NCBI RefSeq assembly: GCF_900182905.1
Contig: NZ_FXUF01000009.1
Span: 62,001-126,000, forward strand
DNA: 64,000 bases
Direction: 5' to 3'
Source: Anoxynatronum buryatiense
GTDB lineage: Bacteria; Bacillota; Clostridia; Peptostreptococcales; Tindalliaceae
The position numbers and the translations under genes are program-made. The notes under the pieces were generated by a model, which had not been told where the DNA came from, ran no database searches, and saw only the letters and a program-made list of their open reading frames with translations. Of this stretch, positions 58,122 through 63,375 are shown in pieces (within the stretch, counting starts at the first letter, position 1; each line of letters starts with the position of its first letter).

Positions 58122-58727
58122 CTATTTTTCTTCAGGAGTCTCCAGTGTTCTAAACAAACGCGATAGATATCGGTGCATGTCAGCCACCAAGTCATACTCA
58201 CCGTCATGCAGTGCCCAGTGGTAGACCACCCCTCTGGCTGCAATAAAAAGATAATCCACCATTTCCTCCGGCGACAGATCTGCGGCCAGTTCCCCGGTTT
58301 GCTGCCCCCGGGTGATGATTTCTGCCAGATACACCTGCAGGTATCGTCCTTTTACCCGAAACAGATTGTTCTGAACCTCATAAAGCTTTTTGACAAATCC
58401 CAGCCCCTGATCCACTGTATAGTGAGCGTAAGCATCAAAGTAGGTGAGTATTTGGGCGCGAATCCCAGATGCCGCGAGTTCAGTGATCTGCGGTGTCACC
58501 GTTTCCCTGAAATAATCATCAATGTCTGTGAAAATCTTTTCCAGCACTGCATACTTTGTCGGAAAGTAGTAATAGTATGTTCCCACAGAAATACCTGCTT
58601 CACGACAAATATCTGTCACTGTGATTTCCTGAAATCCCTTCTGCTCAAATAGACGTGTGGCTGTTTCAAGGATTTTCTTCTTTGTTTCAATCGCTTGCTT
58701 TTGCCGGTTTGTCAAATCCTTTCCCAT
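58122..58727 (-). CDS. TetR family transcriptional regulator
   Basis: A 201-residue regulator. ILETATRLFEQKGFQEITVTD leads into the helix-turn-helix ICREAGISVGTYYYYFPTKYAVLEKI, in the standard place at residues 20-60 (only parts are quoted). The C-terminal ligand domain is not assigned. The ATG at 58727 has GGAGAG 5 bases upstream. It is divergent from the exported flavoprotein gene across 341 bases, and a palindrome lies at that gene's transcription start, so it probably represses it. Confidence 0.92.
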   Translation of the reverse strand: MGKDLTNRQKQAIETKKKILETATRLFEQKGFQEITVTDICREAGISVGTYYYYFPTKYAVLEKIFTDIDDYFRETVTPQITELAASGIRAQILTYFDAYAHYTVDQGLGFVKKLYEVQNNLFRVKGRYLQVYLAEIITRGQQTGELAADLSPEEMVDYLFIAARGVVYHWALHDGEYDLVADMHRYLSRLFRTLETPEEK

Positions 58728-58978
58728 CAAATCTCTCCAGTCTTATGGGTTCTGTTTCCGTTTTTTCTCAGTTATTGCAGCAAGAAACTTTTTTTAACCT
58801 TCATTTTCTCGGCTATTATGGTTCATTATATCAATTCATTCAGACAATGAAAAGTAGTGGCAGTCACCCGATTATCAGATCTTTGACACGGTATCTCTCA
58901 GTTGCATCCATCTTAGTTCATTAGACAACCTCAATGTGTCGCTTTTGATGACATTTCTTTTAACTCATGTTTAGTCTG

Positions 58979-59036
58979 TTGACAATGTCTTAACAATATC
59001 GTAGAATGGTCTAGGTCATTGAGTACATTCAGTGAC
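58979..59036 (+). promoter_or_regulatory. Promoter of the exported flavoprotein with TetR-type operator
   Basis: TTGACA (58979-58984), 17-base spacer and TAGAAT (59002-59007) make a strong sigma-A promoter. At the expected start site, GTCATTGA (59015-59022) and TCAGTGAC (59029-59036) form an inverted repeat with one mismatch and a 6-base centre. This fits an operator for the divergent TetR gene. The remaining 58728-58978 shows no gene. Confidence 0.65.
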
Positions 59037-59068
59037 TACATTCTAAAAAGTCTGAAAGGGGTAATTTG

Positions 59069-60895
59069 ATGAATCGCTTGACACATTTGAAGAAAGGTTT
59101 GGCTTTGTTGCTTGCATTAATCATGGTTTTGGGACTGGCAGCCTGCCAGCCAACTGCCACGGAAGCACCGGAGGCACCAGTGGACGAATCTGCTGATGCA
59201 TTGTTCCAGGCAGGTACCTACACAGCGACTGTTGACGGACACAACGGTGATCTCACTGTTGAAGTCACTGTCACCGCTGACGAGATTGTCAGCATTGAAA
59301 CAACCGACCACAAAGAGAGTGCCGGCATCACTGATCTTGTTTTCGAAAGAATTCCTGCTGCGATTCTCTCCCAGCAAAACCTGGCAGTTGACGCTGTTTC
59401 CGGCGCAACCGTTACCAGTGACGCTCTGATTGCAGCTATTATCAATGCATTAGAGCAGGCCGGCGCAGATATTGCTGCCCTGCAAAGCGGTGCTGGCAGT
59501 GCTGCAGCTGCTGGTGAAGCCATTTCCTACGATGCTGATGTCGTGGTCATTGGTGGTGGTGGTGCTGGTCTGGCCGCGGCTGTCACTGCACATCAAAATG
59601 GTGCCAGTGTTATTATCATCGAAAAAATGCCCCGCCTGGGTGGTAACACCATTCTTTCCGGTGGTGCTTTCAACGCTGTTGATCCTGGCAGACAGGTGCC
59701 TCAGGGAATCGAAGATTCCATTGACAAGCATTTTCAGCAAACCTTCGACGGCGGCGACCAGGTGGGTAATCCTGAACTGGTTCGTGTGCTGGTGGAAAAT
59801 GCCTACCCGGCCATCGAATGGCTGGAAAGCCTGGGCATGAAGTTCAATGACGAGGTGTTTACGGTTCTCGGCGGCCTGTGGCCCCGTGCACACAAACCTT
59901 CCACACCACTGGGCACCGGCTTCATCGACACTTATTCCAATTACATCAATGCTAACGACGGTATTGAAGTACTGCTGGATACTGAAGCCACCGAACTGAT
60001 TGTGGAAAACGGTCGTGTCACCGGTGTTATCGCCAAGCATTTCAACGATGATGTGACACTGAACGCCTCCAAAGGTGTTGTCATGGCTTCCGGCGGATTT
60101 GGCGTGAACTCAGAAATGCGTGACCGCTTCAACGAAGACTGGCCCGCACTGACCAACCTGAAAAGCACCAATCATCCCGGTGCCACCGGCGATGGGCTTG
60201 TTATGGCTGAAGCCATCGGAGCCAGCCTCATCGGCATGCATAACATTCAGCTGCTTCCATTGGGCGACCCCAATAGCGGAAGTCTCAGCGGCAACATTGA
60301 ACACGGTGTTGAAAACCGTATTTTCGTGAACAAAGAAGGGAATCGTTTTGTTGATGAGGGTGCCCGGCGCGATGTGATGACCCTGGCCCTGATGGAGCAA
60401 ACAGATGCCTACCTGTATATCGTACTGGATAGCAGTGATTATCCGGATCCCGACACCACCACTAATAACTTCAACGAAACCATTAATGAACTGATTGATC
60501 AGGGACGTGCCTTCAAAGGCGACACCCTGGAAGAACTGGCAGCCGCCATTAACGTGGATCCTGCCAACCTGGTTCAGGCAGTTGAATCCTTCAATGAAGC
60601 TGTTGAAAACGGCGGTCCCGACGAATTTGGCCGCACCCTTTTTGCCAGAAAAATTGAACAGGCACCTTTCTATGCAGGTCCCCGCGTACCCACCGTTCAC
60701 CATACCATGGGTGGTATTGAAATCAACACCCTGGCACAGGTACTGGATACCGACGGCAATGTGATTCCCGGTTTCTATGCTGCCGGAGAAGTCACTGGCG
60801 GCATTCACGGTGCCAACCGACTTGGCGGCAACGCCCTGGCTGATATTGCCGTCTTTGGCAGAATCGCCGGTGAAAACATTGCCAACGAGCAGTAA
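59069..60895 (+). CDS. Exported FMN_bind / FAD fumarate-reductase-like flavoprotein
   Basis: A 608-residue lipoprotein (lipobox LGLAAC). Residues about 45-135 are an FMN_bind domain with DAVSGATVTS, the ApbE flavinylation motif (covalent FMN on Thr). The rest is a flavocytochrome c/fumarate reductase-type FAD domain: DVVVIGGGGAGLAAAVTA, VHHTMGGIEIN and EVTGGIHGANRLGGNALAD. His and Arg of the last two motifs match the fumarate reductase active site. Where fumarate reductases have a His in an HPT motif, this protein has NIQLLPLGDP, so the electron acceptor may be another enoate. No haem motif is present. AAAGGGG lies 7 bases before the ATG. Confidence 0.9.
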   Translation: MNRLTHLKKGLALLLALIMVLGLAACQPTATEAPEAPVDESADALFQAGTYTATVDGHNGDLTVEVTVTADEIVSIETTDHKESAGITDLVFERIPAAILSQQNLAVDAVSGATVTSDALIAAIINALEQAGADIAALQSGAGSAAAAGEAISYDADVVVIGGGGAGLAAAVTAHQNGASVIIIEKMPRLGGNTILSGGAFNAVDPGRQVPQGIEDSIDKHFQQTFDGGDQVGNPELVRVLVENAYPAIEWLESLGMKFNDEVFTVLGGLWPRAHKPSTPLGTGFIDTYSNYINANDGIEVLLDTEATELIVENGRVTGVIAKHFNDDVTLNASKGVVMASGGFGVNSEMRDRFNEDWPALTNLKSTNHPGATGDGLVMAEAIGASLIGMHNIQLLPLGDPNSGSLSGNIEHGVENRIFVNKEGNRFVDEGARRDVMTLALMEQTDAYLYIVLDSSDYPDPDTTTNNFNETINELIDQGRAFKGDTLEELAAAINVDPANLVQAVESFNEAVENGGPDEFGRTLFARKIEQAPFYAGPRVPTVHHTMGGIEINTLAQVLDTDGNVIPGFYAAGEVTGGIHGANRLGGNALADIAVFGRIAGENIANEQ

Positions 60896-60939
60896 TCACC
60901 ATTTTGCTTAGATCCTCCTTTCTTATATTTCGGTAAGAT

Positions 60940-60990
60940 AACAGCACAAAACCGGAAGCCGCCGCAAGGCACTTCCGGTTTTGTGCTGTT
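60940..60990. terminator. Strong bidirectional terminator
   Basis: A perfect 19-base inverted repeat (AACAGCACAAAACCGGAAG and complement) with a 13-base loop between the convergent flavoprotein and FMN_bind genes. Confidence 0.9.
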
Positions 60991-61009
60991 GTTGATTATA
61001 CTGATGGAT

Positions 61010-61984
61010 TCACTGGCCGGATCGGTTCACCGGCATGGCATAATCGTATATTTTCCATGAGTCCTCATTCTCACGGTGCCCCACCAGGAAATTGCGAAGG
61101 TATCGCCCGGTGCCCCACTGGGGACCACCGGTATCATCGGAAAGCACCTGTTCATAATCCACATTGATCACTTCAAAGTCGACCAGCTGGTAGTCTTTTA
61201 CCAGATCCATCACACCGTCATAGTAATAGTCATTGCAGGCTCCATTGGCCAGCAACCCCTCATTGTATTCTTTGGCACTCAGGGTATCCACATGGTACAG
61301 TGTGACCGCTTTCATGTAACGGCCTTCATCCAGTGCCAGCTTCCGTTCATTTTCGATACTGATGGCGTGTGGCTCAATATCAGCCAGGAGGGTATATTTT
61401 TCGTCAAAGTCAAAGGTGATGGAGCTGATGAAGTCACGCACCACCACTTCTTCTGCAACCGATTTGGGTGGTCGAACCAGTTCCAGTTCCCGGTCTTCTA
61501 CTTCCACCCGATGTGGCCCTTCGTACTGGTATTCATTTTGGTATTCTTTTGAAATATGAGCCACCGGTGGTGATTTTAAAGCCGTTTCAATGGCTTGAAG
61601 AATCACCTTACTGCTGTTGGTGGCTCCCGACACCAGATCCACCTGGGTGGTTTGGAATGCCATGACCTGACCAGGAATCACATTGGCCGCTTCTCCACGA
61701 TCATGCTGATGACTAAACTCCAAACCAGTAATACGGTGGTTTTCCACCGTTACCCGAGCGGTGGCGGAGATCCATGTGATGGTTTTCTCCCCTTCATAAA
61801 TACCGTCTTCCAGGGTTTTTAAGTCAACACCCGTCAGCTCAATGGCCGCCACTTCCTGGCGATACTGACGAAGCTGGAACCACCGTTCCCCCCAGATGAC
61901 ACCCGATGCCAGAAGTACCATCAGCAGAATACCAATGATAAGCCCCCTTTTTTTCTTGAGTTTGGAAACATTTATCGTTTTCAT
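61010..61984 (-). CDS. Membrane-anchored FMN_bind protein with extra C-terminal domain
   Basis: A 324-residue protein with a basic N-terminus, one membrane helix (about 15-32) and an external FMN_bind domain (about 55-135) carrying DLVSGATNSS, the flavinylation motif with the Asp three residues ahead. The C-terminal 170 residues (IENERKLALDEGRYMKAVTL, then WKIYDYAMPVN) look like an NTF2-like/DUF4829-type domain; this assignment is weak. Covalent FMN outside the membrane would let it pass electrons. It is in an operon with a small membrane protein and converges with the exported flavoprotein. AAGGG lies 8 bases before the ATG. Confidence 0.8.
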   Translation of the reverse strand: MKTINVSKLKKKRGLIIGILLMVLLASGVIWGERWFQLRQYRQEVAAIELTGVDLKTLEDGIYEGEKTITWISATARVTVENHRITGLEFSHQHDRGEAANVIPGQVMAFQTTQVDLVSGATNSSKVILQAIETALKSPPVAHISKEYQNEYQYEGPHRVEVEDRELELVRPPKSVAEEVVVRDFISSITFDFDEKYTLLADIEPHAISIENERKLALDEGRYMKAVTLYHVDTLSAKEYNEGLLANGACNDYYYDGVMDLVKDYQLVDFEVINVDYEQVLSDDTGGPQWGTGRYLRNFLVGHRENEDSWKIYDYAMPVNRSGQ

Positions 61985-62013
61985 TCAACCTACCCTTTCT
62001 GCCTGGCAAGCCA

Positions 62014-62475
62014 TTAAGCACCTGCCGTCTGTCGTTGCCGCAGCTTTCGGGAATAAAACAGGAAGATGGGCAGGGGGATTGCGATCCAGCCCAGGCTTTT
62101 AACAAGGGAATTTTTGGCCCGCACTACCTGCCGCTCTGTTTCGGCAATGACCATGGCATCGTACTTTTCCCGAATTTCTTCCTCACTCAGCTGAACCACC
62201 GCTTCACCGTCTTCTTTCAGTTCCCGTTCGATTCCCCACCGTCGGTAATCTTCATAGCTCTGGTAGTAGGGAGCCGGCGCCACAATGTCTGCCACTGCCA
62301 TAAACGCCGCCACACTGCCGCCGATGGTCATCATTAATGTTGCAAACAAGACCACATAGATGTACACATTTCGAATCATGTCTTCGCCTCCCTGATGTGA
62401 ACCGCTTCTCGCACCGGCAATTACCAGTACGACAATCGCCAACAGTGCCAGTGGAATCAGTAAAGAAATTGCCAT
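62014..62475 (-). CDS. Small membrane protein, unknown (DUF5671-like)
   Basis: A 153-residue protein with three or four hydrophobic segments: one at the start (LLIPLALLAIVVLVIAGA), one or two in the middle (VYIYVVLFATLMMTIGGSVA) and one near the end. A charged loop of 60 residues lies between. The central VYIYVVLFATLMM..G pattern resembles DUF5671-type membrane proteins, but the match is loose. It starts 29 bases ahead of the FMN_bind gene and is probably cotranscribed with it. GGAGG lies 9 bases before the ATG. No function can be assigned. Confidence 0.6.
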   Translation of the reverse strand: MAISLLIPLALLAIVVLVIAGARSGSHQGGEDMIRNVYIYVVLFATLMMTIGGSVAAFMAVADIVAPAPYYQSYEDYRRWGIERELKEDGEAVVQLSEEEIREKYDAMVIAETERQVVRAKNSLVKSLGWIAIPLPIFLFYSRKLRQRQTAGA

Positions 62476-62532: not shown

Positions 62533-63375
62533 TCACGGAAGGAACTCGGCTGCAGCTGCTTTCAGTTTCTTGATTTCTTCCTGATGCGCCGGAAGCTCAT
62601 TGGGCGTTTCCAGATTAAAGGGCAAATGCCGCAGGCGGGGATGGGTCATCACCTTCACCAGTGCCTCCAGTCCCAGACTCCCTTCACCAATGGTGGCGTG
62701 ACGGTCTTTTCTGGAGTTAAATGGCACCAGACTGTCGTTGAGATGAAAGGCCTTCAGTCGCTCCAGGCCCATGAGACTGTCTGCATGATCCAGCACCTTA
62801 TCCAGATCAGTGACAATATCGTACCCGGCTGAGTAGAGGTGACAGCTATCCAGGCAGATGCCCAGCCGCCGGTTGTTTTTCACCCCGTCAATGATCATCT
62901 TCAGTTCTTCGAAGGCACTTCCCACTTCAGACCCTTTTCCCGACATGCCTTCCAACAGTATCCAGTTATCTGTTTCTGGCGTCAACAGTTCATTGAGGGC
63001 TTCCACGATCAGGGCGATACCAGTTTCTGCCCCCTGCCCCACGTGAGAACCGGGATGAAAAACATACACGCTTTCCGGTAACTGTTTCAGACGTTCCAAA
63101 TCATCCTGGAAAATCATTCGGGAAAAGGCCCGGGTTTCCGGTTTGTCGGAGCACAGATTCATGGTATAGGCCCCATGGGCAACCAACGGCCCAAACCGGT
63201 GGATATTCATGATTTTTTGCAGCTGCTCCACATCTGTTTTATCAATCGCCTTCGCTTTCCCGCCCCGGGGATTTCGGGTGAAGAACTGGAAGGTGCTGGC
63301 ACCTATGGAAACCGCATCCAACCCGGCCTGGTAAAACCCTTTTGAAATGGAAAGGTGACATCCGATGGTGATCAT
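62533..63375 (-). CDS. nfo: Endonuclease IV (AP endonuclease)
   Basis: A 280-residue TIM-barrel enzyme that cuts DNA at abasic sites with three zinc ions. GCHLSISKGFYQAGLDAVSI at the start, GPLVAHGAYTMNLC, YVFHPGSHVG, ILLEGMSGKGSEVG, GICLDSCHLYSAGYD, FHLNDSLVPFNSRKDRHATI and FNLETPNE supply the His, Glu and Asp metal ligands. Length is normal. It is the only clearly classical DNA repair gene in the window. Confidence 0.96.
   Translation of the reverse strand: MITIGCHLSISKGFYQAGLDAVSIGASTFQFFTRNPRGGKAKAIDKTDVEQLQKIMNIHRFGPLVAHGAYTMNLCSDKPETRAFSRMIFQDDLERLKQLPESVYVFHPGSHVGQGAETGIALIVEALNELLTPETDNWILLEGMSGKGSEVGSAFEELKMIIDGVKNNRRLGICLDSCHLYSAGYDIVTDLDKVLDHADSLMGLERLKAFHLNDSLVPFNSRKDRHATIGEGSLGLEALVKVMTHPRLRHLPFNLETPNELPAHQEEIKKLKAAAAEFLP

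Follow-up and report, generated by a model that had tools for sequence, protein, structure and literature searches.

The DNA analysed here, hereafter the window, is a stretch of 64,000 nucleotides from Anoxynatronum buryatiense (contig NZ_FXUF01000009.1, positions 62,001 to 126,000) which carries at 59069-60895 on the forward strand the gene for a 608-residue flavin reductase, P0001. This protein is probably a lipid-anchored enzyme that works outside the cell, is controlled by a switch and passes electrons to a small unsaturated acid. Our preferred reading, which we hold with moderate confidence, is that P0001 acts as a terminal reductase at the outer surface of the membrane, that its gene is under the control of a TetR-family regulator, that it reduces a 2-enoate other than fumarate with electrons fed from elsewhere in the genome, and that the two genes facing it, P0002 and P0003, stand outside the conserved system. 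The domain architecture is ordinary, and P0001 belongs to a well-defined subclade, the QLLP clade, with a regulator of its own.

The first-pass annotation of this region had proposed an exported flavin reductase facing a pair of membrane proteins at 59069-62475, and its coordinates and reading frames were correct. So was the export of the reductase: a signal peptide is followed by the lipobox motif LAAC at residues 23-26, and the Pfam domains FMN_bind (residues 57-129, 55 bits, cut-off 22) and FAD_binding_2 (residues 157-590, 273 bits) come after it. A flavinylation motif, DAVSGATVT, is found at residue 108 and fits [S/T]GA[S/T]. The NCBIfam model TIGR01813 gives 412.8 bits at a cut-off of 285.45, which places P0001 in the flavocytochrome c subfamily. 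In a sequence search of the PDB the nearest entry was the urocanate reductase UrdA (6t85, E 1.2e-90) followed by the fumarate reductase Fcc3 (1d4c, E 5.5e-85). An AlphaFold model built on a 16-row alignment has a mean predicted local distance difference test score (pLDDT) of 83.4, and its top Foldseek match is again UrdA (6t85, E 5.2e-47, 37% identity).

Positions in the active site were read from alignments of P0001 with UrdA and Fcc3, in which the clamp helix is the least certain region. The catalytic Arg434, His544 and Arg584 are present, as the annotation had stated for the His and Arg of fumarate reductases, and together with Gly587 they correspond to Arg411, His520, Arg560 and Gly563 of UrdA. 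According to PMC7921117, these four residues of UrdA hold the substrate carboxylate, Arg411 is the likely donor of the proton to C2, Asp388 binds the imidazole, and Tyr373 and Phe391 are among the residues which mark UrdA apart. P0001 has Glu411 at the position of Asp388, Phe264 at that of Phe243, and Val266 and Val414 at those of Phe245 and Phe391; the position of Tyr373, which in Fcc3 is His365 of the HPT motif, is Leu396. The TEAVR helix of Fcc3 is replaced by GNIEHGVENR. Counted by hand on the alignments from the PDB search, the distance between position 373 and the strand past the clamp helix is 21 residues in both P0001 and UrdA and 20 in Fcc3. The catalytic residues are kept in all 18 aligned rows of the QLLP clade, and so is each of Leu396, Val266 and Val414. 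Because Phe264, Val266, Leu396 and Val414 are hydrophobic and one acidic residue, Glu411, occupies the UrdA Asp388 site, we infer that the pocket would take a monocarboxylic 2-enoate that is mostly apolar at its far end and has a single hydrogen-bond donor there. The substrate may, at our best guess, be an acrylate with an aryl or heteroaryl group, or else a different 2-enoate that bears a hydrogen-bond donor.

The QLLP clade was obtained with a support of 97/97 in a tree of 37 FAD domains, 18 of them clade rows, and a split supported at 100/99 sets the wider group holding it apart from that of UrdA and Fcc3. It should be noted that this tree was midpoint rooted, contains two characterised enzymes and carries a long-branch warning, so that the exact sister group of the clade is uncertain. 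Members are found in Alkaliphilus, Natronincola, Anaerovirgula, Lachnospiraceae such as Hungatella, and others; Alkaliphilus transvaalensis and Natronincola peptidivorans are cultured carriers. P0001 was matched at E <= 1e-140 in 12 of the 391 genomes of the class, its own included, and one of these matches (G364) lies off the clade; this 46% relative had been considered as a member and was rejected, the tree placing it outside. A 19th member, L027, was recognised by its position in a FastTree tree (0.998) and its QLLP motif; it reads QLLPLGDP...GNIEHSVESR, and it is included in the counts of neighbours and left out of the 37-domain tree and the 18-row residue counts. The 19 loci compared are thus the window, L009-L015, L027, L073, L074, L122 and L124-L130. 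L074 is nearly identical to L073 and enters the locus counts and the operator scan without being in the tree, L123 (G225) repeats L012, the locus of Alkaliphilus transvaalensis, and the two were counted once, and L016 (43%) and other weaker matches were not assigned to the clade. A literature search, judged on titles and the first parts of abstracts, turned up nothing that we recognised as dealing with the clade. Five clade reductases carry a LysM (wall-binding) domain (L124:4372-6357, L125:8153-10132, L126:7336-9288, L129:8690-10624 and L130:356-2305), and a simple pattern finds no lipobox in these five; at L124 the TetR gene has a reductase with LysM on one side and one with a lipobox on the other.

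The TetR-family regulator, which the annotation had not mentioned, is encoded at 58122-58730 on the reverse strand (PF00440, 53.4 bits), divergent from P0001. A homologue adjoins the reductase in 12 of the 19 loci (window, L009, L010, L011, L012, L015, L073, L074, L122, L124, L125 and L128); L128 has the two genes in the same direction, and in the other 11 they diverge. Between the genes of the window a promoter-like site for P0001, TTGACA-17-TAGAAT, lies at 58979-59007 on the forward strand with 11 of 12 consensus matches, although the promoter scan as such, which found 6 sites in the region where shuffled sequence would lead one to expect 4.6, is no evidence on its own. Directly 3' of it is an operator-like site at 59015-59043, made up of an imperfect palindrome (59015-59036) which overlaps a second element at 59028-59043, and the latter fits the pattern TTCRRTGAAYNNRTTC with one mismatch. 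All 11 divergent loci have a site of this pattern in the intergenic stretch, with no mismatch in nine and one mismatch in two (window and L010), and in six (L009, L011, L012, L015, L073 and L074) it is directly downstream of a TATAAT. For each locus at most 1 in 200 random sequences with the same dinucleotide composition matches as well, a figure to be read with the knowledge that the pattern was derived from the same loci on which it was scored. The adjacent regulator and the conserved palindromic site at the promoter suggest that P0001 is a TetR-controlled gene. In G001, a genome of the same genus which is outside the 19-locus count, a 6.9-kb contig (contig 82, L079:3780-4539) carries remnants of the two genes side by side, reductase residues 475-608 (80%) and TetR residues 92-196 (60%), away from P0003; either decay of the genes or a fault in the assembly could account for them.

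Other genes near the regulator were also looked at. A membrane protein with a GATE domain is encoded upstream of TetR at L009:5708-7039, L011:5657-6988, L074:5975-7252 and L122:5482-6813, and one lies near another reductase of the A. buryatiense genome (L085:5002-6378); the proteins are 52-64% alike. PF07670 was confirmed for L011, L074 and L122, and the L009 protein matches that of L011 at 64%. It is possible that these proteins transport the acceptor or the product. Neither these genes nor the ATP-binding cassette (ABC) transporter genes that precede the reductase at L014 gave a common clue to a substrate.

In the mechanism we propose, ApbE would attach flavin mononucleotide (FMN) to the N-terminal domain of P0001, and electrons would pass from FMN to flavin adenine dinucleotide (FAD) and on to an alpha,beta-unsaturated monocarboxylate, not fumarate, whose double bond would be reduced by a hydride from N5 of FAD and a proton from Arg434. 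TetR would repress the reductase gene until the acceptor or the product appears. The electrons would be supplied by an RNF or NQR-like complex encoded elsewhere in the genome and delivered via small FMN_bind carriers.

The genome contains several of the parts which such a supply would use. There are two ApbE genes and 23 FMN_bind matches, among them ten proteins with open frames above 560 amino acids. Each of these ten adjoins a regulator gene, TetR or MerR in eight cases (two share one MerR), LysR in one and a response regulator in one. An RNF set (L104) has rnfC, rnfD and rnfE above cut-off and rnfG at 97.5 bits for a cut-off of 102. L107 holds an NqrB-C-D-E-F-like set, of which the proteins at positions B, D and E pass an Rnf or Nqr cut-off while those at C and F score lower; no NqrA was seen in the 14-kb stretch around this set, and no genome-wide search for it was made. 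A third RnfD and an RnfC-type protein are encoded upstream of a further reductase cluster (L084). A family search for UbiA gave no match in this genome and at least one match in each of 14 control genomes, a result of one search in one assembly (99.8% complete). Because UbiA was not found, the electrons for P0001 probably come from an RNF or NQR-like complex rather than from quinol, and we favour a quinone-independent route via flavinylated carriers such as those described in PMC8238504, which also names quinol as a likely donor in some NapH-like systems. Fer4_5 has three matches in the genome, in two places, and none coincides with an FMN_bind match. A more far-reaching scheme, to which we give only a minor chance, is a quinone-free chain made of flavins throughout: reduced nicotinamide adenine dinucleotide (NADH) or ferredoxin would feed the RNF or NQR-like complex, small membrane FMN_bind carriers, P0002 being one, would take the electrons over from the outward-facing FMN of that complex, and about ten FMN_bind reductases, interchangeable and each under its own regulation, would receive them, P0001 acting on a new class of 2-enoate acceptor.

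The annotation had joined P0001 and the convergent genes into one short electron chain outside the membrane, and its description of the parts was accurate. Between them lies a perfect 19-bp inverted repeat at 60940-60990 (arms 60940-60958 and 60972-60990, 100% complementary), a probable two-way terminator. This repeat is missing from the output of a simple terminator scan, for which the 13-base loop is too long and which reported a weaker overlapping stem instead; the scan's total of 3 sites is under the shuffle mean of 4.5. P0002, at 61010-61984 on the reverse strand, is an FMN_bind protein anchored by a single N-terminal hydrophobic helix (FMN_bind at 75-137, 32.1 bits, cut-off 22; motif DLVSGATNS). 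Its C-terminal domain has no Pfam match, and a single-sequence AlphaFold model of the protein has a mean pLDDT of only 43.4. This domain (window 61013-61564) is rare, being found in 3 of the 391 class genomes: its own, G034 as a separate lipoprotein (L097:6254-6844, 44%) and G343 as a weak match. P0003, at 62014-62475 on the reverse strand, is a membrane protein of 153 amino acids with hydrophobic segments and no Pfam family above cut-off; P0002 follows it after 29 bp.

We consider it improbable that P0001 has in P0002, together with P0003, a dedicated FMN donor in the membrane and forms a short extracytoplasmic chain with it. P0001 and P0002 do adjoin, and both have FMN_bind and a flavinylation motif. 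The arrangement also has a counterpart in the same genome, L084:5014-13841 (on C5), where a reductase with two FMN_bind domains, a 128-residue FMN_bind membrane protein (38% to P0002 residues 12-137) and an FMN_red-domain protein stand in a row behind a divergent TetR gene, with the RnfC-type and RnfD genes upstream. At L130:2340-5831 a NapH-like FMN_bind membrane protein and a protein with FMN_bind and Oxidored_molyb domains are convergent to the clade reductase. However, the two units do not co-occur in other genomes, an outcome which the annotation itself had named as refuting its proposal. By tblastn no relative of P0002 or P0003 was found near the reductase at any of the 18 other clade loci, some of which are shortened by contig ends. 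In 17 of them the matches were just to the FMN domains of the reductases themselves and to the NapH-like protein of L130, and the 13 kb of L027 hold no homologue of TetR, P0002 or P0003. Full-length P0002 was found in none of six other genomes of the family and none of eight genomes bearing an ortholog, where matches end by residue 160. P0003 instead travels with an AP_endonuc_2 gene (window 62533-63375), the product of which we take to be endonuclease IV-like: in G001 and G002, of the same genus, P0003 (71%) adjoins this gene (71-73%) with neither the reductase nor P0002 nearby, an alanine-racemase-like gene (58%) is some kilobases away, the histidine-kinase gene of the window is also matched in the region (65% over half its length in G001), and other genes occupy the place of P0002, reductase and TetR. 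In G003 some 60 kb separate P0003 from the reductase, and in G004 the two are on different contigs. The two units of the window are moreover on different strands and convergent. Because the partners are not conserved at other loci, P0003 goes with AP_endonuc_2 and full-length P0002 was not found elsewhere, P0002 probably stands beside P0001 by an accident of gene order, a local arrangement. It could still act as electron donor or carrier for P0001 in this one organism.

We are equally doubtful that P0001 is a urocanate reductase whose pocket has diverged. Among solved structures UrdA comes closest to it in both sequence and fold, an acid is retained as Glu411 where UrdA has Asp388, and the genome has hutH, hutU and hutI, so that urocanate can be made; none of the relatives compared within the genome has both Tyr373 and Asp388. 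P0001 nevertheless falls outside the UrdA group in the split mentioned above, and three pocket residues of UrdA, Tyr373, Phe245 and Phe391, are Leu, Val and Val. For UrdAs from the gut PMC7921117 reports Asp, Asn or Gln at 388, and not Glu. HutU would also compete for urocanate in the cytosol. The hut cluster (L132:9572-18268, on C2) holds, in addition to the three genes named, a gene related to histidine racemase which scores below the cut-off of that model.

In fumarate reductases of the Fcc3 type the HPT His contacts the second carboxylate, and Glu378 and Arg381 form a proton path. P0001 has Leu396 and the helix GNIEHGVENR at these places, which bears out the annotation's argument that the altered HPT region speaks against fumarate, and a separate reductase of the HPT/TEAVR type is encoded in the genome (L083, 6809-8296). 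P0001 is thus probably not a fumarate reductase. That it should be an extracellular one like the flavinylated Listeria enzyme named in PMC8238504 is highly unlikely, even though the catalytic residues, the TIGR01813 score and FMN_bind would be compatible with it. Equally remote is an oxidase or dehydrogenase working in the reverse direction, or an enzyme for a non-carboxylate such as an enone, since the ketosteroid dehydrogenases which Foldseek finds as more distant fold relatives reach at most 24% identity against 37% for UrdA and the carboxylate-binding Arg434, His544, Arg584 and Gly587 are all kept.

A TetR-controlled 2-enoate reductase fed from elsewhere in the genome remains our preferred reading, and several points weigh against it besides the circular derivation of the operator pattern and the narrow base of the UbiA result. 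No homologous TetR was found in 7 of the 19 loci (L013, L014, L027, L126, L127, L129 and L130); L014, L126 and L130 are short stretches, and L013 has a different TetR_N protein directly upstream of the reductase. In the pocket Glu411 and Phe264 are each present in 17 of the 18 clade rows, with Gly in L130 and His in L128, respectively, and the changes from Tyr373 to Leu and from Phe391 to Val make the analogy with UrdA a partial one only. Imported quinones are possible carriers, reading frames of cytochrome-like CxxCH type were seen by eye in the genome (L105 and L135), and no direct link between the RNF or NQR-like genes and P0001 was found.

Naming the acceptor of the QLLP clade would give a function to proteins of several genomes at once. 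The TetR operator offers a genetic handle for this, as a molecule which releases TetR would be a strong candidate for the substrate or the product, and the route of the electrons becomes a sharp and testable question because the genome apparently lacks UbiA.

The closest known system is UrdA of Shewanella oneidensis (PDB 6t85-6t88). P0001 shares with it the FAD/clamp fold, the carboxylate-binding residues, the proton-donor Arg, an acid at the 388 position, the clamp-helix spacing and an N-terminal FMN_bind domain (that of UrdA as given in PMC7921117). It differs in having Leu396 for Tyr373, Val266 for Phe245 and Val414 for Phe391, in belonging to a separate clade and in being a clostridial lipoprotein with a TetR neighbour. 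With Fcc3 (PDB 1d4c, 1qjd) P0001 has the fold and the catalytic Arg and His in common, but FMN_bind replaces the haem domain, the HPT His is gone, and the clamp helix is one residue longer and of another sequence. As to the donors, the NapH-like and NQR/RNF-like flavinylated systems of PMC8238504 are candidates, and RNF and NQR-like sets are present in the genome, although they are not encoded beside P0001; in L107 the B, C, D, E and F genes are all separate, whereas the NQR/RNF-like systems of that paper are defined by an NqrB-NqrF fusion. The same source counts 3070 fumarate reductase-like proteins with an FMN-binding domain and states that many substrates in the superfamily are not known. 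P0001 shares its domain architecture and its export with this flavinylated class, from which its subclade is set apart by a pocket of its own, the TetR gene, the operator-like site and, in five members, the LysM domain.

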